Shown one piece after another: positions 7,543 to 62,193 of a stretch of 64,000 nucleotides of DNA (position 1 is its first letter; each line of letters opens with the position of its first letter). Source of the stretch: Devosia sp. 2618 (GTDB lineage Bacteria > Pseudomonadota > Alphaproteobacteria > Rhizobiales > Devosiaceae); the NCBI RefSeq assembly GCF_040546815.1, contig NZ_JBEPOO010000001.1, forward strand, positions 3,534,001 through 3,598,000. The letters run 5' to 3'. The notes beneath the pieces were generated by a model. The model did not search any database, had not been told where the DNA came from, and was given only the letters and a program-made list of their open reading frames with translations. Both the position numbers and the translations under genes were made by a program.

Positions 7543-7568
7543 AACGGCCCAAAAAAGATGATCTGGCA

Positions 7569-7600: not shown

Positions 7601-7814
7601 ACCGTGCCGTTGCTGCCCGTTTGAACTGATGTTCAATCTAACAAAAAGAAGAAATGGCGCGCCGGTCCGAGTAAAGCACGAACACCTATTAAATTGAAGT
7701 CAAAAGGTAATCTGCCAGCACTCACTTAGAGCGCCCGTATTTCTGCATAGCTTTGGTCTGCAAGCGCTCTGAAATAGCGACCAAGGCAGATTGCGGTCTC
7801 GGTAGTGGGGTGCT

Positions 7815-36698: not shown

Positions 36699-36735
36699 TG
36701 CGCGCATCCTGTTTTCCGACCACAAGGAAGTAGCC

Positions 36736-37092
36736 GTGCCCCACGTCATCATCGAACTCAGCCGCAATGTCGCCGACCGCGTGGATCTCGCGGCGACAGT
36801 CCAAAGCGTCCACGACGCCCTGTGCGAAACCGGCAAACTGCCGGTCAGTGCCATCAAGTCGCGCCTCGTCATCCATGATCATTTCGCGGTCGGGCGCGAC
36901 ATGTCCGGAGGTTTCGCCACTGCCCTGGTCCGAATCCAGCCAGGACGCCCGCTGGAGATAGAACAGGAGATCGGGAAAGCCGCTTTCGATGCACTTGCCG
37001 GCGCCTTCGCAGTCGTTGAAGACTTTCCCGTCAGTGTTTCGGTCGATGTCCAACTCATCAACCGCGAAGCTTCTTTCAGTAAGGCTGGATAA
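36736..37092 (+). CDS. Tautomerase, 5-carboxymethyl-2-hydroxymuconate isomerase (CHMI)-like
   Basis: A 118-residue 4-oxalocrotonate-tautomerase-superfamily protein. The GTG at 36736 has AAGGAAG 5 bases upstream and places Pro as residue 2, which becomes the catalytic N-terminal proline after Met removal; the longer ATG reading inside the MocR gene would destroy this. The sequence PHVIIELSRN, then LPVSAIKSRL and HDHFAVG match the CHMI family (HpaF). No homoprotocatechuate genes are nearby, so the true substrate is open; it probably acts on a product of the neighbouring pathway. Confidence 0.8.
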   Translation: MPHVIIELSRNVADRVDLAATVQSVHDALCETGKLPVSAIKSRLVIHDHFAVGRDMSGGFATALVRIQPGRPLEIEQEIGKAAFDALAGAFAVVEDFPVSVSVDVQLINREASFSKAG

Positions 37093-37375
37093 CCCCGAGG
37101 TCGCTCTCCGAGACCAAGGTGCATGTCTGATTTATATCAATCAGGCGGAGCATATCTGCCAAATGACTATAGCGCCCATTTCATTCTTTCAAAACCTTCT
37201 AAGATAATCCTGAAAGCTGCCGTTCGCTGCCGCGAATCGTCGTCGACCCTGCGGCTGTATCTTGGCAGTTGCGTCGCCGGATATAATCCGCCTAGGGGCA
37301 TCATTGGAGTGAACAACCGGTTACCCAACGTGCCTTGGCCAGTGATCTATTTCATCGCCAAAGATGAGCCCCGCG
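37093..37375. other. Convergent intergenic gap
   Basis: Between the tautomerase gene and the 3' end of the 12-gene operon. No gene or clear intrinsic terminator is visible on either strand. Confidence 0.45.
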
Positions 37376-38833
37376 TTAGCCGTTGAGGCCGCCGATGCTC
37401 AAGTATTTTGTTTCAAGATACTCAGCGATGCCGTATTTGCTGCCTTCACGGCCGACGCCGGACTGCTTGAGGCCGCCAAAAGGCGCCACTTCTGTGGTCA
37501 CGAGGCCTTCGTTGACGCCGATAATGCCGTATTCGAGCCGGCGCGAGACGCGGAAGGTGCGGCCAAGATCCGCGGTGTAGAAGTAGCAAGCGAGACCATA
37601 TTCGGTAGCGTTGGCCTGCTCGATCACTTCTGCTTCCGTGTCAAAACGGAAGATAGGCGCCACAGGTCCGAAAATCTCGTCACTGGCAAAGGGCATGTCG
37701 GGTGTGGCGCCTGTGACAATAGTAGGCTGGAAGAACGTGCCGCCCAACGCATGGCGCTTGCCTCCAAGGGCGATCTCACCGCCTTTGGCGACCGCATCGG
37801 CGAGCATGGCCTCGACGGTCTCGACAGCCTTGCTGTCGATCAGCGGCCCCTGAGCCACGCCGTCCTCAAAGCCAGACCCGACGCGCAGGGCACGCGTGGC
37901 CTCTACAAATTTTGCGACGAACTGGTCGTGAATCCCGGACTGGACATAGAAGCGGTTGGTGCAAACGCAGGTCTGGCCTGAATTGCGGTATTTAGAGGCA
38001 ATGGCGCCCTCGACTGCACGATCAAGGTTGGCGTCGTCGAAGACGATGAAGGGCGCATTGCCGCCCAATTCCATCGAGACCTTTTTGACGGTAGCTGCCG
38101 CCTGGGTCATCAGCAGCTTGCCCACATCGGTCGAGCCGGTGAAGGTGATCTTGCGGACGAGGGGATGGCTGGTGAGCACGCCGCCGATGGCTGACGCAGA
38201 ACCGGTGAGGATATTGACGGAGCCGTTGGGGAAGCCGGCGTCCTCACACAATTGCGCCCAGGCCAGACCCGAATAGGGGGTTTGGGTTGCCGGCTTGATG
38301 ACCAGTGTGCAACCGGCGGCGAGAGCCGGGCCAATCTTGCGGGCCAGCATGGAAGAGGGAAAGTTCCAGGGCGTGATCGCTGCGACCACTCCCACTGGAT
38401 CATGGGTCACCAGTATCTGCCGACCCCGCCACGGGGAGGGAATGATGTCACCATAGGTGCGGCGCGCCTCCTCGGCGAACCAGAGGATATATTTGGCGCT
38501 CATGTCGATTTCGCCCCGCGCCTCGGCGAGGGGCTTGCCCTGTTCGAGCGTCAGCAGCTGGGCCAGGGGTTCACGGCGTTCAACGATGAGCGCGTGAAGC
38601 TTGCGCATCATGGCGGCACGATCTTCGCTGGTGGTATAGCCGAAACTGCGGAAGGCGGCATGAGCTGCCTCGATCGCGCGGGTGGTTTCAATGGCACCGG
38701 CATTGGCGATGGTGCCGATCACCTTGCCACTGGCCGGATCGGTCACGTCCAGCGTCGAACCAGAGTCTGCGTCACACCATTCGCCATCGATATAGAGTTT
38801 CTGGCGCAAAAGCTGGGTGCTCAAGTCTGACAT
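37376..38833 (-). CDS. NAD(P)-dependent aldehyde dehydrogenase (succinate-semialdehyde dehydrogenase-like)
   Basis: A 485-residue ALDH with the general-base Glu in MELGGNAPF, the nucleophilic Cys in NSGQTCVCTNRF, the NAD-binding ITPWNFPSSMLARKIGPAL and the C-terminal FGGLKQSGVGREGSKYG. This is the GabD subgroup, which oxidises short-chain semialdehydes. Last gene of the 12-gene operon, 6 bp after dhaL. In this setting it would oxidise an aldehyde released by the lyase-type enzymes upstream; the natural substrate is not known. Confidence 0.92.
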   Translation of the reverse strand: MSDLSTQLLRQKLYIDGEWCDADSGSTLDVTDPASGKVIGTIANAGAIETTRAIEAAHAAFRSFGYTTSEDRAAMMRKLHALIVERREPLAQLLTLEQGKPLAEARGEIDMSAKYILWFAEEARRTYGDIIPSPWRGRQILVTHDPVGVVAAITPWNFPSSMLARKIGPALAAGCTLVIKPATQTPYSGLAWAQLCEDAGFPNGSVNILTGSASAIGGVLTSHPLVRKITFTGSTDVGKLLMTQAAATVKKVSMELGGNAPFIVFDDANLDRAVEGAIASKYRNSGQTCVCTNRFYVQSGIHDQFVAKFVEATRALRVGSGFEDGVAQGPLIDSKAVETVEAMLADAVAKGGEIALGGKRHALGGTFFQPTIVTGATPDMPFASDEIFGPVAPIFRFDTEAEVIEQANATEYGLACYFYTADLGRTFRVSRRLEYGIIGVNEGLVTTEVAPFGGLKQSGVGREGSKYGIAEYLETKYLSIGGLNG

Positions 38834-38839
38834 GGTCGT

Positions 38840-39451
38840 TCAATCCAATTGGTCGGTGGTGGAGAGGTCGCGGGCCAAAAGGGCAAAGGCGAGCATGCCG
38901 GGATCGTCGACCCCGATCGTTGCGTCGCCGAACATGCGGGCCCGGCCGATGCGGTTCGGCTTGTCACGGAACTGTTCTAGTGCCGCTTGGGCCGCTTGAG
39001 CCACTGCTTCACGTGGATTGGCGGCGCCCGACAGGGCTCGGGCGGCGGCGTCGACGGCGTCGAGCACAGTCTTGTCGCCGAGGTTGGCACCGCCGCGGAT
39101 CATCATGGCGTCGCGCGCCTTGCCGACGAGGTCCGATAGCGCCGACTGGTCGATCTCGGGTCGCCCCTTGGTTTCGCGGCTGATGGTCAGGAGCGCCGTT
39201 GCCAGTAGGGTACCAAGGCTTGAACCGGTGGCCGAGGCGGCTGCACGGGCCAGCTGGCCGAGCGCTGCACCGGGATCGGCGGCGGTGGAGAGATCCTGCT
39301 CGGCCATCTTGCCGATCACGCGGGCCAGCATGCCGCCCGTGTCGCCATCGCCCAGGCGAGAATCGGCGGCATTGAGAGCCTGTTCATGCTGCTTGATAGA
39401 GATTGCCGCGTCGGCCATGACCCGACTGATGCTCTCTACGGTAATAGACAT
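38840..39451 (-). CDS. dhaL: Dihydroxyacetone-kinase-type subunit DhaL (ADP/ATP-binding)
   Basis: A 203-residue all-helical nucleotide-binding subunit. The Mg-binding aspartates lie in DSRLGDGDTGGMLA, with SATGSSLGTLL and GGANLGDKTVLDA as further family blocks. Its ATG shares one base with the DhaK stop (TGATG), so the two are made together. In the ATP-dependent two-gene form, as opposed to the PTS form with DhaM, DhaK-DhaL phosphorylate dihydroxyacetone or four-carbon ketoses such as erythrulose. No dhaM is present, so an ATP-dependent kinase is likely. Confidence 0.9.
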   Translation of the reverse strand: MSITVESISRVMADAAISIKQHEQALNAADSRLGDGDTGGMLARVIGKMAEQDLSTAADPGAALGQLARAAASATGSSLGTLLATALLTISRETKGRPEIDQSALSDLVGKARDAMMIRGGANLGDKTVLDAVDAAARALSGAANPREAVAQAAQAALEQFRDKPNRIGRARMFGDATIGVDDPGMLAFALLARDLSTTDQLD

Positions 39452-40446
39452 CAGCGCACCTTCCAGAACGGACAATCGGCGGGCGCGGCAAGCAGCTGGC
39501 GCAAGTCTTCGTCGAGAAAGCAGAGGCTGATCGAGGCGCCGGCCATTTCCATCGAGGTCGCGAAGTGGCCCACAAGCGGCTGAACGATGGTCAGTCCGGT
39601 TGTCGAAAGGCGCGACGCCGCACGACGATAGAGGATGAACAGTTCCTCGAGCGGGGTAGCGCCCAAGCTATTGACCAGCACTGTAACCGTGTTGCCCGAT
39701 CCCTCGGGACGGTCGGCCAGCAGGCGCTCGATCATTTCATCGACAATGGTATCGGCCGGTTTGAGCGTGTCACGCCAGATGCCAGGCTCGCCGTGAATGC
39801 CCATCCCCATTTCGATTTCGTCTTCGCCCAAGATAAACGACGGCTGAGCCGAACCAGGTACCTGGCACGGCGCCAGGGCCACGCCGATGGTGCGGGTGGC
39901 TTCGACTGTCCGACGTGCGGTAGCGGTTACCTCGGCCAGAGAACCGCCTGCCTCCGCGTGGGCGCCGGCGGTCTTGTAGGCGTAGATGAGGCCGGCAACG
40001 CCGCGGCGCTTGCTGCGCTCGGCCGGGCTTGCGCTGGCGATGTCGTCATTGCCCAGTACGGTGGTGGATTGGATGTCGTCTTCGAGGAACTCGCCAGCCA
40101 TGTCGAAATTCATCCTGTCGCCACCGTAATTGCCATAGAGGCGCAGAATGCCCGCGCCGCCGTTGGCGGCGTGCATCGCCTCCATGCAGGAGTCGACTGT
40201 CGGGCCCTCGAACACATTGCCGATCGAGCAACTGTCGAGCAGGCCCTGTCCGACATAGCCGGTAAAGAGCGGCAAATGGCCCGAACCGCCGCCAGAGACG
40301 ACGCCGACCTTGCCGGAGCGAGGAGGCGCGGCGCGGCGGATGACGCGACCATTCGAACACTCGCGCACCAGCTCCGGATTTGCCAGGACAAGTCCGTCGA
40401 GCATCTCGTCGACGAAATTGGCCGGGTCGTTCATCAATTTCTTCAT
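39451..40446 (-). CDS. dhaK: Dihydroxyacetone-kinase-type subunit DhaK (substrate-binding)
   Basis: A 331-residue DhaK-domain protein. SGGGSGHLPLFTGYVGQG starts the substrate domain; GIHGEPG contains His218, the residue that forms the covalent hemiaminal with the ketose in the E. coli protein, at the same number here. YGNYGGDRMNFDMA completes the site. The sequence lacks the C-terminal kinase domain of single-chain kinases, which is supplied by DhaL. Whether the substrate is dihydroxyacetone, erythrulose or another ketose is open; it lies between the ThDP enzyme and DhaL genes. Confidence 0.92.
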   Translation of the reverse strand: MKKLMNDPANFVDEMLDGLVLANPELVRECSNGRVIRRAAPPRSGKVGVVSGGGSGHLPLFTGYVGQGLLDSCSIGNVFEGPTVDSCMEAMHAANGGAGILRLYGNYGGDRMNFDMAGEFLEDDIQSTTVLGNDDIASASPAERSKRRGVAGLIYAYKTAGAHAEAGGSLAEVTATARRTVEATRTIGVALAPCQVPGSAQPSFILGEDEIEMGMGIHGEPGIWRDTLKPADTIVDEMIERLLADRPEGSGNTVTVLVNSLGATPLEELFILYRRAASRLSTTGLTIVQPLVGHFATSMEMAGASISLCFLDEDLRQLLAAPADCPFWKVR

Positions 40447-40470
40447 CGTTCGCGTCCTCCCGGCTGCGGC

Positions 40471-42195
40471 TTAGTAGGTCAGCGCCGTATGGTCGTTGAA
40501 GCTGGTGATAGGCGGATAGGCCAGCTCGTCAGTGATGACATCGAGCACAGTCGCGCGGCCCGAGGCGAGCGCCGCCTTGAGGGCGGGCAGGAAGTCCTCG
40601 GCCTTTTCGACTCGCACGCCATCGCAGCCGGCGCCGCGGGCGATTGCGGCATGATCAACCGGGGTAAAGTCGCAGGCATCGCTATATTCGCCGAACAGCA
40701 CCTTTTCGGCATGCTTTTCGTAGCCCAGGATAGAATTGTTGAGCACGGCGACGACCACGGGAAGCCCCATGCGGCGGGCGGTTTCAAGTTCGGACCAGAC
40801 ATGAGCGAAACCACCGTCGCCAACGAGGGCAAACACCGGAGCATCGGGGCGGGCAGCTTTGGCGCCGATGGCGAAGGGTAGGCCCCAGCCAAGCCCGGCG
40901 AGGCCGCGTGGCGCAATGAATCGCGTGCCGGCCTTGCGGCAGGTCAGGAAATTGCCGATCCAGATCGAGGAATAACTGGCGTCGGAAACGACTATCGTAT
41001 CGGGCGTGAGGACACTGTCGAGATCGGCCATCATGCGCTCCGGGCGCATCGGGCTGGCCGACGACGCCTCAAAGCTTTCAGCGTCCTTGCGGGCACGGGT
41101 CAGGCCCTGGGCAATCGCCTGTTCAACCCCGGCTCGGGCAGCATTGCGCTTGGAGAGGTCGAGCTTTTGGAGCTGCTCGGTGAGAGCGGATAGACCCAGC
41201 TTGGCATCACCAACCAGGCGTATGGCCTCGTAGTTGCGACCCACTTCCTGGCTATCGACATCGAGATGAATATAGGTGGCCGCCTTGGGGTAGAGCGACC
41301 AGGAATCGGTACCGTTTTGGTTGGTGCGATTGCCAACCAGCAGGATGACGTCGGCCTTTTCGACTTGGTCGCGCAGGTGTGCGGTGCGGCTGCGATTGGC
41401 CATGAAGTAGCCCACGATGCCGACCGAAAGGGGGTGCGTCTCGTCGATGGCACCCTTGCCCATGACTGTGGTGGCGACGGGAATACCTGCGATTTCCTGC
41501 AGCTCGACCAACTCAGCCACGGCGTCGGACACATGCACGCCACCGCCGGCAATGATCAGCGGACGCTGCGCATTGGCGAGTAGTTCGGCGGCTTCCACCA
41601 CGCGGCGTGGATCGGGGCCTGAGCGGTCGAGCGGGAACGTCCCGAGCGATGCAAATCGCGTATTCGCATCTGGCTTTGGCGTATCGAGGAACATGTCGAT
41701 TGGCGCGATCAGCACCGCTGGGCCGGGGCGGCCGGATGCGGCGGCGGTGAAGGCCATGTCGATATAGTCGTCGATGCGGTTCACATCGGCGACGCGCTTG
41801 ATCCACTTGGCGCTGCCCTTGAACAGCTCGAGGTGGTCGAGTTCCTGGAAGGCATTCCTGTCAGCAAAGGGGCGGGCCACGTCCTGGACGATGGCAACGA
41901 TGGGGATCGAGGCCTTGAGCGCTTCGGCAAGGCCAGGCACCAGCAGCGTTGCAGCAGGGCCATTCTGCGCTGTTACCACGGCAACCTTGTGGGTGATGCG
42001 GGCATAAGCGTCGGCCATGACGGCGCCGGCGTTCTCGGTGCGATAGCCGATCTGGCGGATGCCATAATGCGGGGTGGCGAGGAACAGCGCGGCTGGAATG
42101 GACTGGCCGAAGATGACTTCGACGCCATGGCGTTTGAGGGCGGCGGCCATCACATGCGCGCCGTTGATATTGGTCCGTTGGATGGGGGCGTTCAT
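40471..42195 (-). CDS. Thiamine-diphosphate-dependent enzyme (acetolactate-synthase-like)
   Basis: A 574-residue ThDP enzyme with the three-domain layout of IlvB. The start at 42195 (MNAPIQ) has GAGGAAAG 5 bases upstream. Glu54 in YRTENAGAVMADAYAR is the cofactor-activating glutamate; GDGGFAHVWSELETA with LNNS is the Mg-ThDP motif. Related families include acetolactate synthase, oxalyl-CoA decarboxylase and 2-hydroxyacyl-CoA lyase. It is encoded with three CoA-transferase-type units and no acetolactate regulatory subunit, so a catabolic C-C cleavage or carboligation is more likely than branched-chain amino-acid synthesis. Reaction unknown. Confidence 0.88.
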   Translation of the reverse strand: MNAPIQRTNINGAHVMAAALKRHGVEVIFGQSIPAALFLATPHYGIRQIGYRTENAGAVMADAYARITHKVAVVTAQNGPAATLLVPGLAEALKASIPIVAIVQDVARPFADRNAFQELDHLELFKGSAKWIKRVADVNRIDDYIDMAFTAAASGRPGPAVLIAPIDMFLDTPKPDANTRFASLGTFPLDRSGPDPRRVVEAAELLANAQRPLIIAGGGVHVSDAVAELVELQEIAGIPVATTVMGKGAIDETHPLSVGIVGYFMANRSRTAHLRDQVEKADVILLVGNRTNQNGTDSWSLYPKAATYIHLDVDSQEVGRNYEAIRLVGDAKLGLSALTEQLQKLDLSKRNAARAGVEQAIAQGLTRARKDAESFEASSASPMRPERMMADLDSVLTPDTIVVSDASYSSIWIGNFLTCRKAGTRFIAPRGLAGLGWGLPFAIGAKAARPDAPVFALVGDGGFAHVWSELETARRMGLPVVVAVLNNSILGYEKHAEKVLFGEYSDACDFTPVDHAAIARGAGCDGVRVEKAEDFLPALKAALASGRATVLDVITDELAYPPITSFNDHTALTY

Positions 42196-42229
42196 TGTAT
42201 CTTTCCTCGAAAGGGTTGTGGCCAGCGCG

Positions 42230-43027
42230 CTAGACCTTGAGCAGCACGCGATTGGGATCGATAACCGAGCGGATGTCGGCAAGTTCGCTGTCGGTGGGTT
42301 CTGCGGTGGTCGGTATGGTCGATGGCACGATGGGGCTAAGCGACATGAGATCGCGCACCTCCTCGATCGTCACGCCCGAATGCAGGGAGACAAGGCGCAT
42401 CGCCTTGCTGATCGGCTCGAAGTCAAAGATGGCCTTGTCGGTGACGACCAGTTGCGGTCCGCCGGCGTCCAGTCCCGCTTGAAGGCGCGTGTTGCCACCA
42501 TCGAGGTAGCCAACGCTGGTGATGAAATCGACCTTCTCGACGAAGGTGCGGCTATCGAGGTCGCAGACCAGGTACGGACGGCGGACAAAAGCCAGGTGCT
42601 CGGGTTGCGCAAGGCTGCCCACGAGCCGGACGTCGGGCTGCCGATAGTCGCCGATGGCCGTGATGTTGAGATTGCCGAAGCGATCGATCTGGGCGGCCGA
42701 ATTGAAGCTGACATCAAAGCTCGAGCGCATCAGCATATCGCATTTGGCGCCGGTGTCGGCCGGACAGCACGCTGCCTGCCAGCGGGTGAAGGCATCCTGG
42801 GTGAAAGTCTCTGGGATCACCGACAGGTCGGGTTCAAGCAAATTGCCCCAATAGACCGCGGCGCCCGGCGCGTGACGCATCTGGGCCAGGCGAACGGCAG
42901 CAAGTGGGATGCCCACGGCCAGGGTAAAGGCGCGGCCATTAGTACCGACACCGACAAAGCAAAGGTCGTCGTCGCGGATCTGGCGGGACAGGAAGGCGGT
43001 GATCAGTTCGTTGTTTGAATAGGTCAT
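42230..43027 (-). CDS. CoA-transferase-fold subunit B, pair 1 (GctB/CatJ/IpdB-like)
   Basis: A 265-residue class I CoA-transferase B-type subunit (ELITAFLSRQIRDDDLCFVGVGTNG, then the HAP landmark, FNSAAQIDRFGNLN, DFITSVGYLDGG). In CatJ/GctB the catalytic Glu lies nine residues after the His of HAP; here that position is Gly60 (HAPGAAVYWG), so the usual acyl-CoA-swapping glutamate seems absent. IpdB, which with IpdA makes a C-C hydrolase, also lacks it. The pair may thus be a hydrolase or lyase acting on a CoA thioester. It is encoded 9 bp after its A subunit. Confidence 0.85.
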   Translation of the reverse strand: MTYSNNELITAFLSRQIRDDDLCFVGVGTNGRAFTLAVGIPLAAVRLAQMRHAPGAAVYWGNLLEPDLSVIPETFTQDAFTRWQAACCPADTGAKCDMLMRSSFDVSFNSAAQIDRFGNLNITAIGDYRQPDVRLVGSLAQPEHLAFVRRPYLVCDLDSRTFVEKVDFITSVGYLDGGNTRLQAGLDAGGPQLVVTDKAIFDFEPISKAMRLVSLHSGVTIEEVRDLMSLSPIVPSTIPTTAEPTDSELADIRSVIDPNRVLLKV

Positions 43028-43036
43028 GCTGTCCCC

Positions 43037-43921
43037 TCAGCTGCGGTCGAGCTTGGCAAGGGCGGAAACGCCGCCAAACAGGTCGAGATAGGCCGCATGA
43101 TCGGCCGGGGCGCGGGCGAAGTCGTCGAGCCAGGCTTTGGCGCCATCGGCGGTCTTGCCGGCGGCCAGATAGGCCAGCATAGCCGCGTCGTCCTCGTCAT
43201 AGATCGTGTCACAGGCCGCCGGATGGGATCCGTAGGGCACCTCAACGATGGCCTCGACCCAATTGCCCGGGATGTAAGTCAGCGATGGCTGCTTCTTGAT
43301 GTCTTCGTGCGGAATGATCTTTTCGACCGTCACGATCAAACGCTTGGCCGCTGCGGCCATGGGTTGGTCAACGTCGTCGGTGTCGCGCACGATCGGCCAT
43401 TGCACGTTGCCGTATTTGTCGCCCGCATATCCGTGGATGATGGTGAATTCAGTATCAGCCGCGGCTATGCCCTGCATCTTGCGCCCGGTGAAGGGGCAGT
43501 AGAACACCTTGATCTGTTCGGGATTGTTCGCGGCAAGGTCGGAACCGAACAGCGTCCTGATCGGGAGGAAAGGCAGGCCCTGCCCCGCCGCACGCAACCG
43601 GGCGACGAAAGCAGTTTCGGAAAAGTCGCGGACTTCGATCTTGCCGCTCTGCACGCCGCGGCGGAAATTTGGGGCAAGGCCATAGTTGAACATGCCGACA
43701 TAAATGCCTTCCCAGCGACGCACGGCTTCGGCTGCTGCCAGCATGTCGATGGCCGTGGTTCCTGCCCAGGTCAGGACAGTCAGGTCGGTCACGCCGCGCT
43801 GGATCAGGTGGCGCACTGCGGCATTGGGCTGGCGCCGCAACAGGCTGCCTCCCAAGGCAATGGACGTACCAGACTGGATCGGCGCCAACGCCGTCTCCAG
43901 TGAAACGAGTTTTTCTTTCAC
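43037..43921 (-). CDS. CoA-transferase-fold subunit A, pair 1 (GctA/CatI/IpdA-like)
   Basis: A 294-residue A-type subunit. The GTG at 43921 (MKEKLVSLE) has AGGAGA 7 bases upstream, better than the longer ATG reading. Blocks: SGTSIALGGSLLRRQPNAAV at the CoA-binding start, VGMFNYGLAPNFRRGVQSGKIEVRDFSE, YCPFTGRKMQGIAA, and the cis-Gly loop with HGYAGDKYGNVQWP. It pairs with subunit B just downstream. It shares about the same layout as the second A subunit at 48923, but the two are clearly diverged, so they are not a recent duplication. Confidence 0.87.
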   Translation of the reverse strand: MKEKLVSLETALAPIQSGTSIALGGSLLRRQPNAAVRHLIQRGVTDLTVLTWAGTTAIDMLAAAEAVRRWEGIYVGMFNYGLAPNFRRGVQSGKIEVRDFSETAFVARLRAAGQGLPFLPIRTLFGSDLAANNPEQIKVFYCPFTGRKMQGIAAADTEFTIIHGYAGDKYGNVQWPIVRDTDDVDQPMAAAAKRLIVTVEKIIPHEDIKKQPSLTYIPGNWVEAIVEVPYGSHPAACDTIYDEDDAAMLAYLAAGKTADGAKAWLDDFARAPADHAAYLDLFGGVSALAKLDRS

Positions 43922-43946
43922 TTGCTTGTCTCCTGGAATCGGCGCG

Positions 43947-45137
43947 CTAGAGCACGCCATCCGTCTTGAGTGCTTCGACGTCGCTGTCCGCCATGCCGAG
44001 CCAGTCGGAGAGGACGTCTGAATTGTGCTCGCCCAGCATCGGGGGCGGACGACGTATGGAAAGCGGGGTGTCGGACAGGCGCATGGTTACGCCCGATACG
44101 GCCACTTCACCGGCCTTGGGGTGGTTGATTTTGATGATCTGGTTGCGATGCAGCAACTGGGGGTTCTGCACGACATCCTGAGGCGTCGCGACCTTAGCCA
44201 CCGGAATGCCAGCCTCACCGAAGGTGGCGACGATGCCTTCGGTGGTCTGCGACAGGCACCAGTGTTGAATGATTTCTTCGATCGCAGGAGCGTTTTCGAG
44301 GCGGGTCGAGACGTTTTCGAAGCGTGCATCGTCCACCAGTTCCGGGCGACCGATGGCTGTGGCTACACGGCGGAACAGCGGTTGGGTCCCTGCCAGCAGC
44401 AGCACATAGTCGCCGCTGCCCGTGGCAAACACATTTGCTGGCGCAGAATAGCGGTCGCGATTGCCGATGCGCGACAGGGTCGTGCCCTGGTTCAGCTGTG
44501 AGGAGATCGCGGTGGTCAGGACCGAGACGGCACTGTCGAGCAGCGACACGTCGATCATTTGGCCCTTGCCCGTGGTATCGCGGGCAAACAAAGCCGCCAG
44601 CGTGGCATTGGCGCCATACATGCCGGTCATGTAGTCAATATAGAAGGCGCCGGCCAACATCGGCGGGCCTTCGGGATTGCCGGCCAGTGACATGAGGCCA
44701 CTCATGGCCTGGGCGATGCCATCAAAGCCAGGCAACTGGGCATAGGGTCCGTCCTGGCCAAACCCGGACAGACGGGTCATCACCAGCCGTGGATTGATCT
44801 CGCGCAGCACGTCCCAGCCGCATCCCATGTCTTCCATGGTGCCGGGGCGGAAATTTTCCACCAATACGTCGGCACCCTTGACCAGCTCACGCAGCATGTC
44901 CTGCGATTTGGGATTGCGGAAGTTGAGCGTCATCGACCGCTTGTTGCGGTTGAGCGCCATGCCGTAGAGGCTTTCTCCGTTCTGGAAGGGCGGGAAATGG
45001 CGGCTGTCGTCACCGTAGCCCGCCTTTTCCACCTTCACAACATCGGCGCCCATATCGGCCAGGATCATGGTGCAATGCGGCCCGGCGATGAAGCGGGAGA
45101 GGTCGAGTACCTTGATGCCGTTGAGTGGGCCAGTCAT
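43947..45137 (-). CDS. CaiB/BaiF class III CoA-transferase
   Basis: A 396-residue family III CoA-transferase. The N-terminal GIKVLDLSRFIAGPHCTMILADMGADVVKVEKAG and NRNKRSMTLNFRNP are diagnostic. The catalytic aspartate lies in IDYMTGMYGA, and the adjoining PAQLPGFDGIAQAMSG-like region is intact (PGFDGIAQAMSGLMSL). Members move CoA between carboxylic acids through an aspartyl-anhydride intermediate, for example formyl-CoA:oxalate or succinyl-CoA:carboxylate. It lies inside the operon between the ATPase and pair-1 subunit A and probably activates the imported or first-oxidised acid. Confidence 0.93.
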   Translation of the reverse strand: MTGPLNGIKVLDLSRFIAGPHCTMILADMGADVVKVEKAGYGDDSRHFPPFQNGESLYGMALNRNKRSMTLNFRNPKSQDMLRELVKGADVLVENFRPGTMEDMGCGWDVLREINPRLVMTRLSGFGQDGPYAQLPGFDGIAQAMSGLMSLAGNPEGPPMLAGAFYIDYMTGMYGANATLAALFARDTTGKGQMIDVSLLDSAVSVLTTAISSQLNQGTTLSRIGNRDRYSAPANVFATGSGDYVLLLAGTQPLFRRVATAIGRPELVDDARFENVSTRLENAPAIEEIIQHWCLSQTTEGIVATFGEAGIPVAKVATPQDVVQNPQLLHRNQIIKINHPKAGEVAVSGVTMRLSDTPLSIRRPPPMLGEHNSDVLSDWLGMADSDVEALKTDGVL

Positions 45138-45160
45138 GTCAGTCTTTCTCTTGAATTCAG

Positions 45161-45958
45161 TTATGCGGCGACGCGGGAGGGCATTTTCCCGCCCACGATC
45201 ATGGAAACCAGCTCGTCGTGATCGATATCGGCCCGACGCACGGCGCCCACCATCCGGCCGTTCTTGAGCACGGCGATGCGGTCGGCGACCTGGAACACGT
45301 GGTCCAGGTTGTGGCTGATGATCAGGACGCTGTAGCCCTTCTCCTTGAGACGCATGATCAGTTCGACCACGAGGCGCGATTCCTCGACGCCGAGGGCGGC
45401 CATCGGCTCGTCCATGATCAGCAGCTTTAGATCGCTTTCGAGCAGCAGGCGGGCGATGCCCACGGCCTGGCGCTGACCGCCCGAGAGCGCGCGGACCATC
45501 TTGTTCAGATCCGGTGTCTTGAGGCCCAGCTCTTCGAACAGGGCAATAGTCCGGCGGCGCATTTCAGCGTGATCGAGGGAGGGGATCACACCGCCGATGC
45601 GCCGCTGGAGCTCGCGGCCCATGAAGATGTTTTCCTGTACATTGAAAACATCGACCAGGGCCAGGTTCTGGTGCAGTGTCTCGATGCCCTGCTTGGTGGC
45701 GTCGCTGGGGCTGCTCATTTCCACGGGCTGGCCGTTGATGGTGATTGTGCCCAACGTCGGGCGCAGCACGCCCGAGATCATCTTGATGAAGGTGGACTTG
45801 CCCGCACCGTTGTCGCCGACCAGCGCTACGATTTCATTGGGGAAGACATCAAAGTCGATGGCGTTGTTGGCGATGTGGCCGCCATAGGTTTTGGTCAGGC
45901 CACGAATGGCGATCATCGGGTCGCGCGTCTCGGCGCCGAGTGCTGCGGGGGCGGGCAT
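45161..45958 (-). CDS. Sugar ABC transporter ATP-binding protein (single-domain, CUT2)
   Basis: A 265-residue ATPase: Walker A GDNGAGKS (48-55), LSGGQRQAVGIARLL signature, LLIMDEPMAALG Walker B and ISHN. The Walker B tail has Met for Thr (DEPMAALG), a mild variant. Like the ATPase at 792 it is half the size of RbsA. It follows the binding-protein gene after a 59-bp gap with a hairpin and precedes the CaiB gene by 23 bp, which puts transport and CoA chemistry on one mRNA. Confidence 0.92.
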   Translation of the reverse strand: MPAPAALGAETRDPMIAIRGLTKTYGGHIANNAIDFDVFPNEIVALVGDNGAGKSTFIKMISGVLRPTLGTITINGQPVEMSSPSDATKQGIETLHQNLALVDVFNVQENIFMGRELQRRIGGVIPSLDHAEMRRRTIALFEELGLKTPDLNKMVRALSGGQRQAVGIARLLLESDLKLLIMDEPMAALGVEESRLVVELIMRLKEKGYSVLIISHNLDHVFQVADRIAVLKNGRMVGAVRRADIDHDELVSMIVGGKMPSRVAA

Positions 45959-45988
45959 GGGAGGCTCCTGGCAGGATAGCTGGTGAAA

Positions 45989-46010
45989 GCCGGGATGCGA
46001 ACACCCCGGC
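45989..46010 (-). repeat. Stem-loop between sugar-binding-protein and ATPase genes
   Basis: GCCGGG and CCCGGC form a 6-bp perfect stem with a 10-base loop just after the binding-protein stop on the minus strand. It is in the same place as the stem at 26244 in the ribitol locus and could stabilise the upstream binding-protein message. Confidence 0.5.
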
Positions 46011-46017
46011 CATTGGA

Positions 46018-47052
46018 TCAGGCCGAAAGGGCGTCGAGATTGACGGCCGGCACGCGGCGGGTCTGCGCCTCGGCATCGTAGAATTCGTCTACGTTCTCGG
46101 CCGTGATCATGGGCGAGGAGAAGACGATCTCCTTTGGCACTTCCATGCCCTGGAGGATGCGCGAGGTGACTTCCACGGCTTCACCACCAAAGGTCGGGTA
46201 GACGAACGTGCCGCGGAGCAAGCCGTCCTTGATCATCTGCAGCGTCTCTGGCGCGCTGCCGTCAAAGCCTGTGATGAACATCTCTTCGGCGCGACCGGCT
46301 TCCTGGATAGCCTGGAGGGCGCCCTTGGCCATGTTGTCGTTGTGGCAATAGACGGCGTCGATCTCGCGCTGGGCCTGCAGGAAATCCTGCATCAGCGTGA
46401 GGGCCTCGGCGCGGCTATAGTTGGCAATGCCCTGGGCGACAACTTCGATGCCGGGGGTGGCATCAATGATTTCGCGGAAGCCGTTGCCGCGCGCTTGGTT
46501 AACAAGCGAACCTGGACGGCCCTCGATCTGGACGACCTTGCCCGAACCGCCCAGGGTATCGACATAATATTGGCCTGCCATGCGAGCGGTGCCAAACGTA
46601 TCAGCGGCCAGGTGGGCGTTGAACTGCACGTCGCCGGCGAGAGCTGAGCTCATGACGATCACGGGGATGCCGGCGGCATTGAGTGCCTGCACTCCCGGCT
46701 GCACAGCTTCGGCGTAGTAGGTGATCATGATCACCGCATCGACGCCGCGGACCGCAAGATCCTCTAGATTGCGGATCTCTTGCGCCGGGTTTTCACGCGC
46801 ATCGGTGGTCAGCACTTCCATGCCAAGTCTCTGGGCATAGCTGATCACGTCCTGACGCTGCAGCTTGAGCCATTCGTCCGTCGCATAGGACTGCGAGAAG
46901 CCGATGGTCTTGCCGGCAACTGGTGACTGCGCGCGCGCGCTGGTGATTACGAATGGAAAGCCGGTGATGGCCAGTGCGCCGGCGCCGAGGCCGCTTTTGA
47001 GCAGGCTGCGGCGGCTGATCGAGGACGTCTGTCCCTTTTTCATGATTGTCAT
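46018..47052 (-). CDS. Sugar ABC transporter periplasmic substrate-binding protein (Tat-exported)
   Basis: A 344-residue Peripl_BP_4 protein. AGGAGGAA precedes the first ATG by 6 bases. The leader has a clear twin-arginine motif (SRRSLLKSGLGAGALAITG) ending near ARAQ, so export in folded form by Tat is likely. Mature blocks: GKTIGFSQSYATDEWLKLQ, DAVIMITYYAEAV, VYCHNDNMAKGALQAIQ and ITGFDGSAPETL. The ligand may be a sugar, polyol or sugar acid; the CoA-linked enzymes in the operon make a plain pentose or hexose less likely. Confidence 0.92.
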   Translation of the reverse strand: MTIMKKGQTSSISRRSLLKSGLGAGALAITGFPFVITSARAQSPVAGKTIGFSQSYATDEWLKLQRQDVISYAQRLGMEVLTTDARENPAQEIRNLEDLAVRGVDAVIMITYYAEAVQPGVQALNAAGIPVIVMSSALAGDVQFNAHLAADTFGTARMAGQYYVDTLGGSGKVVQIEGRPGSLVNQARGNGFREIIDATPGIEVVAQGIANYSRAEALTLMQDFLQAQREIDAVYCHNDNMAKGALQAIQEAGRAEEMFITGFDGSAPETLQMIKDGLLRGTFVYPTFGGEAVEVTSRILQGMEVPKEIVFSSPMITAENVDEFYDAEAQTRRVPAVNLDALSA

Positions 47053-47066
47053 TGTCGTTCCTCCTG

Positions 47067-47080
47067 CGGGGTTTGCCCCG
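47067..47080 (-). repeat. Short stem-loop before the binding-protein gene
   Basis: CGGGG and CCCCG with a 4-base loop lie between the permease stop and the ribosome site of the binding-protein gene. It is small, so any role in setting relative expression is speculative. Confidence 0.35.
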
Positions 47081-47087
47081 TTGTCAT

Positions 47088-48077
47088 TTAGCGTTGGCGA
47101 TTGCGTAGATTGCTGATCACGACGGCCACGACGATGATCAGACCCATTGCGAGCATCTGCACGAATGGCGAGACGCCCATCAGGTTCAGCATGTTGGTGA
47201 TGATGGCGAGGATCAGCACGCCCAGGATGGTGCCAACCACACCGCCGACGCCGCCGTCGAACGAGGTGCCGCCTATAAGGGTGGCCGCGATCGCGTCCAG
47301 TTCGAAGAGGGTGCCGGCATTGGGTTCAGCGACGCTGACGCGGCTGACGAGGATCAGCCCGGCTACACCGGCCAGGAAGCCAGCCAGCGCATAGACCTGA
47401 ATCTTGATCGCATCCACCTTGATCCCGTAGACGCGTGCGGCGTCCTGGTTGGCACCGACGGCATAGACGTGGCGGCCCCAGCGAGTGTGCTTCATCACAT
47501 AGGCAGCGATCAGCCAGAGGCCCAGGAACACGACAACCGGGATCGGAATGATCCACAGGTAGCCCGAGCCAAGGGCGCGGAACATAGCGTCGGCGCCTTG
47601 CGCATATGTGTCACCACCGTCTGAATAGAGATAGATGCAGCCGCGGGCGAAGATCATCATGGCAAGTGTCGCAATGAACGGCTCGAGCTTGAGCTTGGTG
47701 ATCATCAGGCCGTTGATTGCGCCCAGTGCCGTGCAAAGGGCCAGCGCTGCAATCCAGGCGACAGGCGATCCGTTCGAGGCCAGCGCTGCCGCCGTGATTG
47801 CGGCGACGCCGACAAGCGAGCCTGCCGAAAGGTCAATGCCTTTGGCCAGGATCACGATGGTCATGCCAATACTGACCACACCCACCATGCTGGCGCCGCG
47901 CAACACGTTGAGGATGTTGGTGGAGTTCAGAAAATAGGGCGACGCAAGAGTGGCCGCGACCACCAGGATCAGGAAGGTGATGACGTGGCTGTACTGCAGC
48001 AGGAACATCAGCACCGCCCGGCTATTGAGCTTGCCGGCTTGCTTAGTTTGCTTGGCTGCGATGGGGGCATCGGACAT
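47088..48077 (-). CDS. Sugar ABC transporter permease (CUT2, RbsC-like)
   Basis: A 329-residue inner-membrane permease with family signatures AKGIDLSAGSLVGVAA, AVGANQDAARVYGIKVD and IGGTSFDGGVGGVVGTILG. Unusually, the operon order is permease, binding protein, ATPase; most CUT2 operons start with the binding protein. It begins 24 bp after the pair-2 subunit B gene. No lesion is visible. Confidence 0.92.
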   Translation of the reverse strand: MSDAPIAAKQTKQAGKLNSRAVLMFLLQYSHVITFLILVVAATLASPYFLNSTNILNVLRGASMVGVVSIGMTIVILAKGIDLSAGSLVGVAAITAAALASNGSPVAWIAALALCTALGAINGLMITKLKLEPFIATLAMMIFARGCIYLYSDGGDTYAQGADAMFRALGSGYLWIIPIPVVVFLGLWLIAAYVMKHTRWGRHVYAVGANQDAARVYGIKVDAIKIQVYALAGFLAGVAGLILVSRVSVAEPNAGTLFELDAIAATLIGGTSFDGGVGGVVGTILGVLILAIITNMLNLMGVSPFVQMLAMGLIIVVAVVISNLRNRQR

Positions 48078-48101
48078 GGACTGGTTCCCTGCTCGGTGTA
48101 A

Positions 48102-48926
48102 TCAGGCCGCGGGGTGCGGAATGAGGAAGTTTTTGGGATCGACGTGCTGGCGCAGGATCATCAGATCCTGAGCCGACGGCTCGGGGGTGAAATCGGGACT
48201 GTCATTGCCAAGGGCAAACCCGGTGCTTGCACGGACGTCTTCAAGCGAAACGCCCGGGTGGATGCTCTGGAGGCGCGCCGTGCCGGCCTGCTTGTCGAAG
48301 GCAAAGATTGCCTTGGGCGTCACGATCCATTGCGGACCGCCATGGTCGAGGCCGAGCGCAGCGCGCCCTGCCATGCCACCGGGGTAGCCGACGCCCGAGA
48401 TATAGTCGACGCGTTCAACGAAACTGCGCAGTTGATGATGCGGCATCATCAGATACTCGCGACCAAAGCAGGTCATGTGCTCGGGCAGAAGGATGGAGCC
48501 CACTAACCGCACCTTGGGGCTGTCGAAGTCGCCAACGCAGGTACTGTTGATATTGCCTTGGACATCCACCTGCACGCCCGAGCCGAAACCGAAGTCGACA
48601 TCACCCCGGCGCACCGCATAGTGGCCAGGATAGGTCTGCATCTGGGCTTCGCAAGCCAGGTTCTGGAGCGTTGCGGCAAATTCGGCATCGGGCATGGCCG
48701 ACAATTCCCTGAGGTCGGGATTGATCGACCAGCCGGCGAGCAGGATCGTCAAATCCGGGGCATGGGTCAGCCGGGCAAACTGCATGGCGGCCAGCGGTAT
48801 GCCCGTAGCGTAGAGCGCAGCCGGGCCGCCAGTAGCAAGGCCGGTAAAGCCCACCTCGCCGTTGGCAAAGTTGCGCGCCAGGTTGATCGCCAAGAGTTCT
48901 TCGATCGTATAGGGCAAAGTGTTCAT
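48102..48926 (-). CDS. CoA-transferase-fold subunit B, pair 2 (GctB/CatJ/IpdB-like)
   Basis: A 274-residue B-type subunit: LLAINLARNFANGEVGFTGLATGGPAAL-type start, the landmark THAPDLTILLAG, VQVDVQGNINSTCVGDFDSP and VDYISGVGYPGG. As in pair 1, the catalytic-Glu position nine residues after the HAP His is not Glu but Ala64 (HAPDLTILLA). Both pairs in this operon therefore share this loss, by different substitutions. Start overlaps the A-subunit stop by 4 bp (ATGA). Confidence 0.85.
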   Translation of the reverse strand: MNTLPYTIEELLAINLARNFANGEVGFTGLATGGPAALYATGIPLAAMQFARLTHAPDLTILLAGWSINPDLRELSAMPDAEFAATLQNLACEAQMQTYPGHYAVRRGDVDFGFGSGVQVDVQGNINSTCVGDFDSPKVRLVGSILLPEHMTCFGREYLMMPHHQLRSFVERVDYISGVGYPGGMAGRAALGLDHGGPQWIVTPKAIFAFDKQAGTARLQSIHPGVSLEDVRASTGFALGNDSPDFTPEPSAQDLMILRQHVDPKNFLIPHPAA

Positions 48927-49828
48927 CGGGGCAGCTCCACCGCGCGCAGCGCCAGCAGGCGTTCAACGCCGATCAGCTCGAGATACGCCGCGTGGTCGGC
49001 AACGCCGTGCACATAGCGATCGAGATAGCCCTGAGCACCCTCGGTGGTGGCGCTTGCCTCGGCATAAGCCTCGATATGGGCCTTGTCAGTCTCGTAGAGC
49101 CCCAGCACCGGCGTCGGATGCGCGCCATAAGGCGCCTCGACAATATGGGCGGTCCGGAAGGCCGGGATTTCGGTCAGTTCGGGATGGCGGCGGATTTCAT
49201 CGGTGCCCACAATGCGGTCGACGACGACGATCACAGTGTCGCAGGAGCGGGTGTGGGTGACGTCCACACTCTGCGGCAGCAGGCGCCGGGCGGGGAAAGC
49301 CACATTGCCATATTCATCACCCATGATGGCGTGAACCACCACGACATCAGGCCTGGCCGGCGGCACCGCCCACATCTGGCGACCCGTGATCGGGCACTTG
49401 AATGGCACGATATCGGCATTGCGGTTCACGATATCGCTGCCGCCCAGAAACGTCGCCGGCCAGAATGGCAGGTTTTCCTGATCCGCACGGAACCGGTCCC
49501 AGGCGATCAGTTCCGGGTAGTCCACCGTCTTGATCGCCCCGGCCTCGGCGGCGCGGCGGAAATTGCGGGCCAGGCCGAAATTCTCCAGCCCTACATAGGA
49601 TGTCTCGATGCGGCTGACGGCGCCGGCTGCGATCAGCAGGTCTGACTCGATGCTGTTGACGACGCCGACGATCGTCAGATCTCGCCGGTTCTGTCGGACG
49701 AGCTCGCGCACGAAAGCCATTGGCCTTTGATAGGTCGCGAAGCCGCCAAATGCGATGCGCATGCCGTCAGTGACTATTGCGGCAGCGTCGCTCAGCGAAC
49801 ACAGTTTGGATCGACGTTTCACCGGCAA
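48923..49828 (-). CDS. CoA-transferase-fold subunit A, pair 2 (GctA/CatI/IpdA-like)
   Basis: A 301-residue A-type subunit and first gene of the 12-gene operon. Blocks: IVTDGMRIAFGGFATYQRPMAF, VGLENFGLARNFRRAAEAGAIKTVDYPE, FKCPITGRQMWAVPPARPDV and HAIMGDEYGNVAFPAR. Its C-terminal part VADHAAYLELIG parallels pair 1 (ADHAAYLDLFG), showing shared ancestry. Two LacI-type operators lie 63-95 bp upstream, before the divergent regulator. Which thioester it acts on is unknown. Confidence 0.87.
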   Translation of the reverse strand: MPVKRRSKLCSLSDAAAIVTDGMRIAFGGFATYQRPMAFVRELVRQNRRDLTIVGVVNSIESDLLIAAGAVSRIETSYVGLENFGLARNFRRAAEAGAIKTVDYPELIAWDRFRADQENLPFWPATFLGGSDIVNRNADIVPFKCPITGRQMWAVPPARPDVVVVHAIMGDEYGNVAFPARRLLPQSVDVTHTRSCDTVIVVVDRIVGTDEIRRHPELTEIPAFRTAHIVEAPYGAHPTPVLGLYETDKAHIEAYAEASATTEGAQGYLDRYVHGVADHAAYLELIGVERLLALRAVELPR

Positions 49829-49890
49829 GGTTCTCCCCAGGAAACCGATCGGTCATCCATTGTCGGCCTTTGATCGGCTCTCTTGAGACA

Positions 49891-49910
49891 ATGTGATATC
49901 GATTTCACAT
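49891..49910. promoter_or_regulatory. LacI-type operator O1
   Basis: ATGTGATATCGATTTCACAT is an inverted repeat whose 14-bp core TGATATCGATTTCA (49894-49907) fits the LacI-family layout of half-sites around a central CG. It lies between the 12-gene operon and the divergent LacI gene. Confidence 0.65.
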
Positions 49911-49923
49911 GACATCGATCTCA
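49910..49923. promoter_or_regulatory. LacI-type operator O2
   Basis: TGACATCGATCTCA repeats the O1 core with its centre 16 bp further on, about one and a half helical turns. Two abutting sites suggest cooperative binding or control of both divergent promoters. Confidence 0.55.
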
Positions 49924-50013
49924 TATTGGGCTTGGCTCGTCAAGTGAGGCGCTATAGATTCTGTTATGTTTTGAAGACAACCGCGGCGAAAAGGCCGGAA
50001 AGGGAGGCCTACC

Positions 50014-51093
50014 ATCAACCAAGATCGAAAGAAGCGACCGTCTCTCGAAGACGTCGCAGAGGCCGCCGGCGTGTCCCGAGCCACCGTGGCGCGCGCCCTT
50101 TCGGGCAAGGGCTATGTCGACAAACAGAAGCGCGAGGTGATCGAGAACGCAGCCAAGCAGCTGGGCTATCGCACGTCCGCAATTGCCCGGGCGCTGCGCA
50201 CCCAGCGTTCACGCTCCATCGGCGTCCTGGTCGCCGATATCACAAACCCGATCTTTCCGCAGATCGTCAAAGGTATCGACGATGTGCTGAGCGCCGAGGG
50301 GCACATCATCTTTTTGTGCAACACCGACGAAAACACCGCCAAGCAGTTCAAGCTCGCCAGTTCACTGATCGACCGCAATGTCGACGGACTGATCTTAGTT
50401 TCGCAGAATCTTGAAAGCGAAGGGTTTCGCAACCTTCTAGCCGGCGGCCCGCCCTGCATCTACGTCAACCGCCGACCGCTTGAAGGCGAGTACGACTATG
50501 TTGGTTCGGATAACGAGCAAGCCATCGAATTCCTGGTCGAGCATCTGGTTGGCCTCGGTCACCGGCAAATCGGCTTTATCGCCGGTTCTGCCAATTCCTC
50601 GACAGCGCGCGAACGCCGCGAGTTCTACCACCGTGCCCTTGAGCGCCGTGGCATCACCATGGAGGATAATTTTGTGTTCCAAGGTGACTATACGATTGAA
50701 GGCGGACGACGGGCCTTTGTCGAGATGATGCAGCGGGGACCTGCGTTGACGGCGGTAATGGCGTCGAATGACTTCTCAGCACTGGGTTTCATCGATGCCG
50801 CCCAGGCTTTCGGCCTCACTGTGCCAGGCGACATTTCGGTCACCGGCTTCGACGACACGGCCGGCGTGAACAGCTTTATGAAGTATCCTCTGCCTATAAA
50901 GGGCCTGACCACAATCTACCAATCCAAACGCGAGATCGGCATTCACGCAGCAAATATGATGCTGCGCCGTCTAGATGGCAGCGCGGGTACTGCGCCTCAG
51001 GTCGCCATCGTGCCGACGAACCTGCGGGCACGGGACACAACTGGCGAGGTTCGGTTGGTGCGCAAAAAATCGGCGGTTCAGCGACAAAATTAG
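50014..51093 (+). CDS. LacI-family transcriptional regulator with apparent ATC start codon
   Basis: A 359-residue LacI regulator: HTH at residues 10-32 (SLEDVAEAAGVSRATVARALSG), hinge, and the effector domain with RSIGVLVADITNPIFPQIVKG, VAGSDNEQAIEFLVEHL-like DYVGSDNEQAIEFLVEHL, and VTGFDDTAGVNSF. The only start that keeps the HTH is an ATC at 50014, placed 7 bases after GGGAGG; a stop lies in frame at 49972 and no ATG, GTG or TTG comes before the HTH. The next start (50071) would delete half of the HTH. It probably represses the divergent 12-gene operon and itself through O1/O2. Confidence 0.88.
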   Translation: MNQDRKKRPSLEDVAEAAGVSRATVARALSGKGYVDKQKREVIENAAKQLGYRTSAIARALRTQRSRSIGVLVADITNPIFPQIVKGIDDVLSAEGHIIFLCNTDENTAKQFKLASSLIDRNVDGLILVSQNLESEGFRNLLAGGPPCIYVNRRPLEGEYDYVGSDNEQAIEFLVEHLVGLGHRQIGFIAGSANSSTARERREFYHRALERRGITMEDNFVFQGDYTIEGGRRAFVEMMQRGPALTAVMASNDFSALGFIDAAQAFGLTVPGDISVTGFDDTAGVNSFMKYPLPIKGLTTIYQSKREIGIHAANMMLRRLDGSAGTAPQVAIVPTNLRARDTTGEVRLVRKKSAVQRQN

Positions 51094-57562: not shown

Positions 57563-57597
57563 TGAGTGTCCCTTTATTCGACTGGAAATGGATGTGA

Positions 57598-59061: not shown

Positions 59062-59071
59062 GATGTGGTCC

Positions 59072-61311: not shown

Positions 61312-61406
61312 AATCCGATCTGATATCCGATTTGCAATTCGATATTCATGATGCTATTCCTTCGGTGCTGTCAAGGTCACCACATGTGAGAAGGATGGAC
61401 TTGCCG

Positions 61407-62120: not shown

Positions 62121-62193
62121 GGAAGATGTCGGGCACTACCCGGCCCAATATCACATTTCAAATTCAACAAACGTCATCATGGAGGAGAACTGA

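Follow-up and report, generated by a model that had tools for sequence, protein, structure and literature searches.

A Devosia operon conserved as a gene set links a CUT2-type importer to coenzyme A thioester enzymes behind an operator-like tandem

A stretch of 64,000 nucleotides from Devosia sp. 2618 (positions 3534001–3598000 of contig NZ_JBEPOO010000001.1, in a genome of 4.26 Mb; hereafter, the window) contains twelve genes, all on the minus strand from 49828 to 37376, that bring a sugar-type importer together with enzymes of coenzyme A (CoA) thioester chemistry. The operon is genuine and its gene content is conserved, with parts of it recurring in distant soil and root bacteria; one conserved operator-like tandem lies in front of it. 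As read from the open reading frame list and from Pfam and NCBIfam matches, the genes are transcribed in the order A2, B2, permease, solute-binding protein (SBP), ATPase, CaiB, A1, B1, thiamine diphosphate (ThDP) enzyme, DhaK, DhaL and aldehyde dehydrogenase (ALDH), where A1-B1 and A2-B2 are two pairs of PF01144-fold subunits (Table 1). We propose, with our confidence evenly balanced, that the operon is catabolic and under the control of a repressor, and that its substrate is a sugar-like polyhydroxy compound degraded as CoA thioesters.

No intergenic gap exceeds 59 bp, and several adjacent genes overlap. Following transcription, the spacings are −4 bp (A2/B2), 24 bp (B2/permease), 35 bp (permease/SBP), 59 bp (SBP/ATPase), 23 bp (ATPase/CaiB), −14 bp (CaiB/A1), 9 bp (A1/B1), ~34 bp (B1/ThDP), 24 bp (ThDP/DhaK) and 6 bp (DhaL/ALDH); the ThDP gene starts with the ATG at 42195, not the TTG at 42282, and DhaK overlaps DhaL, whose ATG is at 39451. 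The first-pass annotation had described gaps below 60 bp, overlaps and this same gene order, and all twelve genes were found where it had placed them. The importer is of CUT2 type, with a BPD_transp_2 permease, a Peripla_BP_4 SBP and an ABC ATPase side by side; the ATPase carries one ABC domain only (265 aa), which corrects the earlier description. A compact unit that ties a sugar-type importer to CoA chemistry is upheld, and it has its own divergent LacI-family repressor.

We compared 26 loci (L007, a longer piece of the L005 plasmid, was counted together with it as one), with frequencies resting on sampled genomes, one contig scan and plasmid records, and with the strain’s own genome included in the counts. 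Eight distinct loci carry A1, namely the window, L004, L005, L008, L009, L012, L024 and L046, and in all eight A1, B1, CaiB, ThDP, DhaK and DhaL are clustered, including the one from another class (L046, phylum-search genome G548). A2 is present in seven of them and absent in L024 (family-search genome G509), a genome searched whole with A2 in which only the A1 place matched; B2 was seen in six, because L012 ends at its record end. ALDH lies in the cluster in just two of the eight and is not a core member; its relatives include one of 70% in L024 and one of 53%, ~10 kb away, in L007. All eleven remaining genes are found together with LacI, rearranged within ~12.5 kb, in two Microvirga loci, which argues that the grouping is not due to chance. 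Conservation of the twelve-gene order, put forward in the first pass as a check, did not hold: the identical order was found in no other locus examined, and what is kept is the gene set, along with two sub-modules.

The two sub-modules form separate operons in Shinella (L008), with module I comprising A1, B1, CaiB, ThDP, DhaK and DhaL, and module II comprising A2, B2, permease, SBP, ATPase and a second CaiB. The CaiB of the window is of module II type (71% to the module II CaiB of L008), and a second CaiB is not kept. Other loci vary the arrangement: in Azospirillum (L009), the two gene sets diverge around a LacI gene; in L024, module I carries ALDH and adjoins TRAP, SDR and Gfo/Idh genes, with no A2-B2 and no CUT2 genes; in L046, A2, B2, A1 and B1 lie in one run, and the CUT2 genes are only ~32% identical to those of the window; and Shinella sp. 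PSBB067 (L011) has A2-B2, ThDP, DhaKL and CaiB and no close A1. Thus, the window operon can be read as module II, module I and ALDH joined behind the operator of module II. The single-operon arrangement claimed earlier stands for the window, where the genes form one unit, but not for Shinella, where the transporter and the ThDP/DhaKL genes belong to separate operons.

A2 was matched at E 1e-40 or better in 1 of 61 same-genus genomes and at 1e-50 or better in two of 289 genomes of the class, where the second match (L003) has an unrelated neighbourhood; A1 reached 1e-80 or better in 2 of 398 phylum genomes, and the ThDP enzyme 1e-210 or better in 10 of 385 class genomes and 2 of 136 family genomes. 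The contig scan returned three loci, two from Microvirga (A2 ~76%) and one, with A2-B2 alone, from an uncultured alphaproteobacterium (L006). Among plasmid records, ten carry A1 at E 1e-40 or better, five of them at 58–76% identity; the eleven plasmid stretches examined (L007–L012, L034–L038) are a subset of all plasmid matches. The plasmid loci examined come from Shinella sumterensis, S. oryzae, Azospirillum argentinense and Microvirga, as well as Shinella sp. PSBB067 with a distant A1 only, and a further plasmid, NZ_CP132303.1, has both A1 and A2 matches.

Between the LacI gene and A2, the sequence TGANATCGATNTCA occurs twice, 16 bp apart. No further exact match occurs in the genome, which has one-mismatch matches at 17 other places. 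An identically spaced tandem of this sequence, one copy bearing one mismatch, is found beside LacI/A2 in L004, L005 (the L007 plasmid), L008 and L012, i.e., in Microvirga and Shinella, and LacI relatives adjoin it in all four; in L008, the matching site lies solely ahead of module II. L046 has a single copy with one mismatch, at 8270 between LacI and A2, and no tandem partner. Allowing up to one mismatch, L009 and L011 gave no match, and the one match in L024 lies within a gene. The tandem is a probable operator-like element ahead of the operon, and we infer that LacI binds there. The operon promoter itself was not seen, because promoter-like sites in 36900–51200 are at chance level (4 sigma-70-like sites against 4.0 expected) and none lies in front of A2; terminator-like sites in the same interval number 11 against 9.7 expected by chance. 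As for the repressor, the GTG at 50071 falls inside the DNA-binding helix, and no ATG, GTG or TTG lies between the last in-frame stop and that codon (50002–50071), which, together with a preceding GGGAGG, suggests the ATC at 50014 as the start.

From the genes and their active-site residues, we infer the activities, the order of steps and the kind of substrate as follows. (i) Uptake: the CUT2 importer would take up a sugar-like compound. (ii) Activation: CaiB would transfer CoA from a small donor to a polyhydroxy acid. (iii) Cleavage: A2B2 and A1B1 would hydrolyse C–C bonds next to the thioester, in a ring opening or a reaction of retro-Claisen type. (iv) Lysis: the ThDP lyase would split the shortened product into a triose and a small aldehyde or formyl thioester. 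(v) Outlet: DhaKL would phosphorylate the triose and, in the window strain, (vi) ALDH would oxidise the other fragment. In its specific form, with two successive IpdAB-type hydrolases opening and shortening a perhaps cyclic polyhydroxy acid CoA thioester and the ThDP lyase feeding a triose to DhaKL in a route not described before, the proposal is tentative, and we lean against rather than towards it. To our knowledge, IpdAB-type hydrolysis has so far been seen only on steroid rings. The first-pass scheme of activation by CaiB, cleavage and phosphorylation remains plausible in outline; the pairs now read as IpdAB-like proteins that are not transferases.

The argument for hydrolysis rests on the active sites of the two pairs. 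All four subunits have the PF01144 fold (A1 86.1 bits, B1 38.9 bits, A2 70.8 bits and B2 24.9 bits; cut-off 23). The position of Glu54 of GctB, the residue that forms the anhydride in class I transferases, is Ala in 8/8 B2 rows and either a gap (MAFFT) or Trp (HMMER) in 6/6 B1 rows; three further B chains (L046 B1, L046 B2 and L024 B1) also have no Glu there. In the same alignment, a control B from a Shinella plasmid (L011:8353-9099) has a canonical FESG. Some B1 carry a Glu a few residues downstream (GNLLEP), which is not a conserved replacement because Thr takes its place in L004, L005 and L046. As no B1 or B2 row checked retains the catalytic B-subunit Glu, the pairs are probably not CoA-transferases. 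The three CoA-transferase-type units of the first pass are more likely one class III transferase and two non-transferase pairs; its suggestion that the pairs do the cutting, not the carrying of CoA, is supported.

The A subunits point in the same direction. A D-x-x-E Glu is present in 15/15 A1 and A2 rows and in neither of two other rows (His in the A beside the canonical B, Gly in L003). By profile match, this column is Glu in 6co6 (IpdA), Ala in 6coj and Gln in GctA, so 6coj is a variant at exactly this Glu; we take 6coj to be IpdA E105A and Glu105 to be catalytic. IpdAB is alike in its PF01144 pair, in having no Glu at the GctB position and in the IpdA Glu kept in A1 and A2. It is unlike in that the window has two pairs, and a sugar-type importer with LacI instead of steroid genes. 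IpdAB itself, a COCHEA-CoA hydrolase of steroid degradation, is described in the parts of PMC5380842 used here as having no GctB-type Glu (Gly57) and no CoA transfer with the acids tested. GctAB, a glutaconate CoA-transferase, is the closest solved relative by sequence, with the same fold and subunit sizes; it differs in having the catalytic Glu of the B subunit, and in the Gln of GctA where A1 and A2 have Glu. AibAB (5mzw) shares the fold and has no Glu54 residue; unlike A1 and A2, AibA has Gly in place of the Glu, and the PDB variants 5n00–5n02 differ just at the Glu54 column, where B2 has Ala. The AibAB wild type presumably has Cys there. An Arg common to A1 and IpdA was tried as a marker and dropped, because it also occurs in the canonical A of L011. 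In L011, CoA-transferase genes of canonical appearance (the B has FESG) and a gene resembling acyl-CoA synthetases lie at 7520-10043, close to the A2-B2/ThDP/DhaKL cluster. In L006 461-10347, the neighbourhood of A2-B2 includes an HpcH-like aldolase, a histidinol-dehydrogenase-like protein, an SDR and a canonical-looking ScoAB pair that carries SENG, these being named by eye.

The ThDP enzyme belongs to the PRK06112 family (NF004772). Aligned to plant AHAS, it has Glu at the position of E493, the residue that protonates the C2alpha carbanion, and Gln at the position of Q128 of AcHACL, a 2-hydroxyacyl-CoA lyase (HACL). The Glu, which pyruvate decarboxylases have too, is present in seven of the eight A1-bearing loci, the window among them, and in L011. 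According to Table 1 and the related text of PMC13327070, this position is Glu in AcHACL, a mycobacterial HACL, several 2-oxoacid decarboxylases and sulfoacetaldehyde acetyltransferase (SAAT), Val or Ile in AHAS, GCL and POX, and Asn in cyclohexane-1,2-dione hydrolase, while HACL1-type lyases have no E493 helix and human HACL2 has Ile. The likeness to AcHACL extends to the ThDP fold and a nearby CoA-activating gene; differences are an identity of 25% in the structure match, CaiB instead of a ligase as activator of the acid, and DhaKL at the outlet. In the predicted model (pLDDT 83.5), the E493-position helix lies in a low-confidence stretch (493–505), so the placement of Glu in space is uncertain. 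By fold, the model does not single out HACL: HKA synthases, HACL, GCL and AHAS have tied Z of 37–40 among the 50 matches listed.

CaiB matches PF02515 over its full length (1–366 of 366), and its closest PDB relatives are succinate-hydroxymethylglutarate and formyl-CoA transferases; we take the Asp in YIDYMTG to be catalytic. As suggested earlier, it is the likely thioester-forming enzyme. DhaK retains the family motifs GSGH, GGD and GIHGEPG, yet scores below the DHA-kinase cut-off; the earlier suggestion of DhaKL as a triose outlet is supported. ATP would be the phosphate donor, since no DhaM gene was found within the operon. DhaK relatives of 68–74% lie in five plasmid loci (L034–L038) beside other genes. 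In L034–L036 (Azospirillum, Devosia and Shinella), DhaKL of the same subfamily lies beside dihydrodipicolinate-synthase-family aldolases and tripartite tricarboxylate transporters; because of these aldolases, this type of DhaKL may serve trioses from acid-cleaving routes generally.

Several observations weigh against the proposed route. The core has no dehydrogenase able to make a beta-keto group. Both A and B are overall nearer to GctAB (1poi) than to IpdAB (236.6 against 174.5 bits for A, 189.2 against 98.2 bits for B); the Arg position, which is Arg or Lys in A1 rows and has no Arg in A2 rows, is not diagnostic; and AibAB, which we take to be a 3-methylglutaconyl-CoA decarboxylase and hence a non-transferase, also has no transferase Glu, so a missing Glu alone does not prove a hydrolase. 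The Azospirillum ThDP enzyme (L009) has Gln at the E493 position. Lastly, ThDP relatives at 57–70% identity lie in 10/10 fetched stretches (L010, L025–L033; 9.9 to 25 kb) without A/B or CaiB, and the ThDP step may therefore not use CoA.

This last point is the core of an alternative that we consider rather improbable: the ThDP enzyme would act without CoA on a 2-oxo acid or alpha-hydroxyketone, in the manner of a decarboxylase or a hydrolase of cyclic diones, and the CoA enzymes would belong to a separate branch within one pathway. Two of the ten stretches, L010 11015-22317 (S. meliloti pSymA) and L025 9286-18980, have the ThDP relative with a Liv-type ABC importer, a FabG-like SDR, an AroE-like protein and a GMC oxidoreductase, which would suit such a reading. 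Yet every A1-bearing locus has the ThDP gene in the company of A1-B1 and CaiB, and the E493 residue mostly splits the groups, with Glu in 7/8 of those loci against Gln in eight, and Glu in two, of the ten relatives.

An unlikely alternative is a formyl-CoA cycle along the lines of the Frc/Oxc pair of oxalate degradation: CaiB would act as a formyl-CoA:acid CoA-transferase, with the ThDP enzyme as the 2-hydroxyacyl-CoA lyase that cleaves a tertiary 2-hydroxy acid. For instance, 2-(hydroxymethyl)glycerate would yield formyl-CoA, which reloads CaiB, and dihydroxyacetone, which DhaKL takes. The Glu and Gln of the ThDP enzyme and the formyl-CoA transferases close to CaiB are consistent with it, as is the adjacency of CaiB and the ThDP gene in Shinella and Azospirillum. 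Along the same lines, the AcHACL mutant E493S is reported in the portion of PMC13327070 consulted to take dihydroxyacetone as a carboligation substrate. In Foldseek, HACL structures top the matches to the ThDP model, but they are of the HACL1 kind, with AcHACL at rank 26.

We doubt strongly that either pair, A1B1 or A2B2, is an ordinary class I CoA-transferase that swaps CoA between intermediates; Shinella and Azospirillum records annotate them as ‘CoA-transferase’ and the best PDB relative is glutaconate CoA-transferase, but the anhydride-forming Glu is missing and CaiB already provides a transferase. A chance or recent juxtaposition of unrelated transporter and CoA operons is already disfavoured and highly improbable: the exact order is not kept, the modules are separate in Shinella and module I of L024 has no A2-B2, but A2 and module I lie within ~25 kb in seven of the eight A1-bearing loci (window and L046 included), with the order inside modules largely kept.

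As a substrate, a cyclic polyhydroxy acid counts as a lead and not as a result. Hints come only from relatives: L046 has a ShiA-like transporter (357.6 bits, below the cut-off of 538), and Shinella (L008) has an AroE-like protein (166 bits; cut-off 252) and an IolG-like oxidoreductase (103.9 bits; cut-off 355), all below curated cut-offs, which may point to shikimate-, quinate- or cyclitol-like substrates there. MaoC proteins are also among the genes of the relatives. The shikimate/quinate hint comes from relatives only, as the sole AroE-type gene of the strain’s own genome lies elsewhere; an AroE-like enzyme in the operon was rejected on that one PF08501 match, with motifs compared by eye only. 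The substrate may also be an apionate-like branched sugar; ‘apionate’ was not found in one set of 12 listed open-access papers. The SBP model is poor (pLDDT 62.8), and a ligand assignment from W61 and Y-P-T at 285–287, common with chain 2x7x, was set aside as too weak to use. We take 2x7x to be a fructose sensor and a D-R pair, absent in the SBP, to bind ribose in RbsB; neither was used.

The earlier statement that no described pathway has this gene set agrees with a search of titles and abstracts in the open-access PMC literature, which found no paper describing it; subscription journals lie outside that scope. The nearest described logic is the proposed oxidative deoxyribonate pathway of Klebsiella, in which, according to the sections of PMC6365646 drawn on here, a sugar acid is degraded as CoA thioesters. 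That route, unlike the present one, uses a CoA synthetase, a hydroxyacyl-CoA dehydrogenase, a thiolase and a glycerate kinase, and the operon shares with it only a CoA-transferase (CaiB). If the proposal is true, IpdAB-type C–C hydrolysis would extend from steroid rings to sugar-like acids, and genes of rhizosphere bacteria now called ‘CoA-transferase’ and ‘acetolactate synthase’ would receive new names. The system would also be compact and LacI-controlled, such that one inducer screen could expose an unknown plant- or soil-derived carbon source.

Table 1. Genes of the operon, the divergent repressor gene and the probable operator, in window coordinates.
Feature	Position	Strand	Evidence
A2, alpha subunit of IpdAB/GctAB-fold pair, module II	48923..49828	-	PF01144 70.8 bits; Glu at IpdA column (Ala in 6coj)
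B2, beta subunit of pair 2	48102..48926	-	Ala at GctB Glu54 position
CUT2-type permease	47088..48077	-	PF02653 142.8 bits
CUT2 SBP, Tat-like signal	46018..47052	-	PF13407 166.5 bits; TAT_signal 19.9 bits, below cut-off 22.7
ABC ATPase, single domain	45161..45958	-	PF00005 105 bits; GDNGAGKST and LSGGQ present
CaiB/BaiF class III CoA-transferase	43947..45137	-	PF02515 435 bits
A1, alpha subunit of pair 1 (module I core)	43037..43960	-	Same Glu as A2
B1, beta subunit of pair 1	42230..43027	-	No Glu at GctB Glu54 position
ThDP-dependent lyase-like enzyme, PRK06112 family	40471..42195	-	NF004772 913 bits (curated cut-off 673); Glu at AcHACL E493 position
DhaK, triose kinase subunit	39451..40446	-	PF02733 371.5 bits; TIGR02363 359.9 bits, below cut-off 406
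DhaL, second kinase subunit	38840..39451	-	TIGR02365 82.6 bits, below cut-off 138
ALDH, succinate-semialdehyde type, accessory	37376..38833	-	TIGR01780 667 bits (cut-off 646)
Divergent LacI-family repressor	50071..51093	+	DNA-binding helix begins upstream; probable ATC start 50014
Probable operator copy 1, TGATATCGATTTCA	49894..49907	.	Exact tandem repeat
Probable operator copy 2, TGACATCGATCTCA	49910..49923	.	Exact tandem repeat

Elsewhere in the window, a short CHMI-family protein (36691–37092) is convergent with the operon end and adjoined by a GntR/aminotransferase (MocR-type) regulator (35334–36698). A second sugar-acid-type gene set lies at 56438–63201, with an enolase-superfamily protein, an ALDH, an Fe-ADH and a malate/lactate dehydrogenase; a TRAP binding protein is encoded there on the opposite strand. 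Between 12001 and 24000, G+C drops to 0.556–0.573, compared with 0.590–0.640 in the rest of the window.

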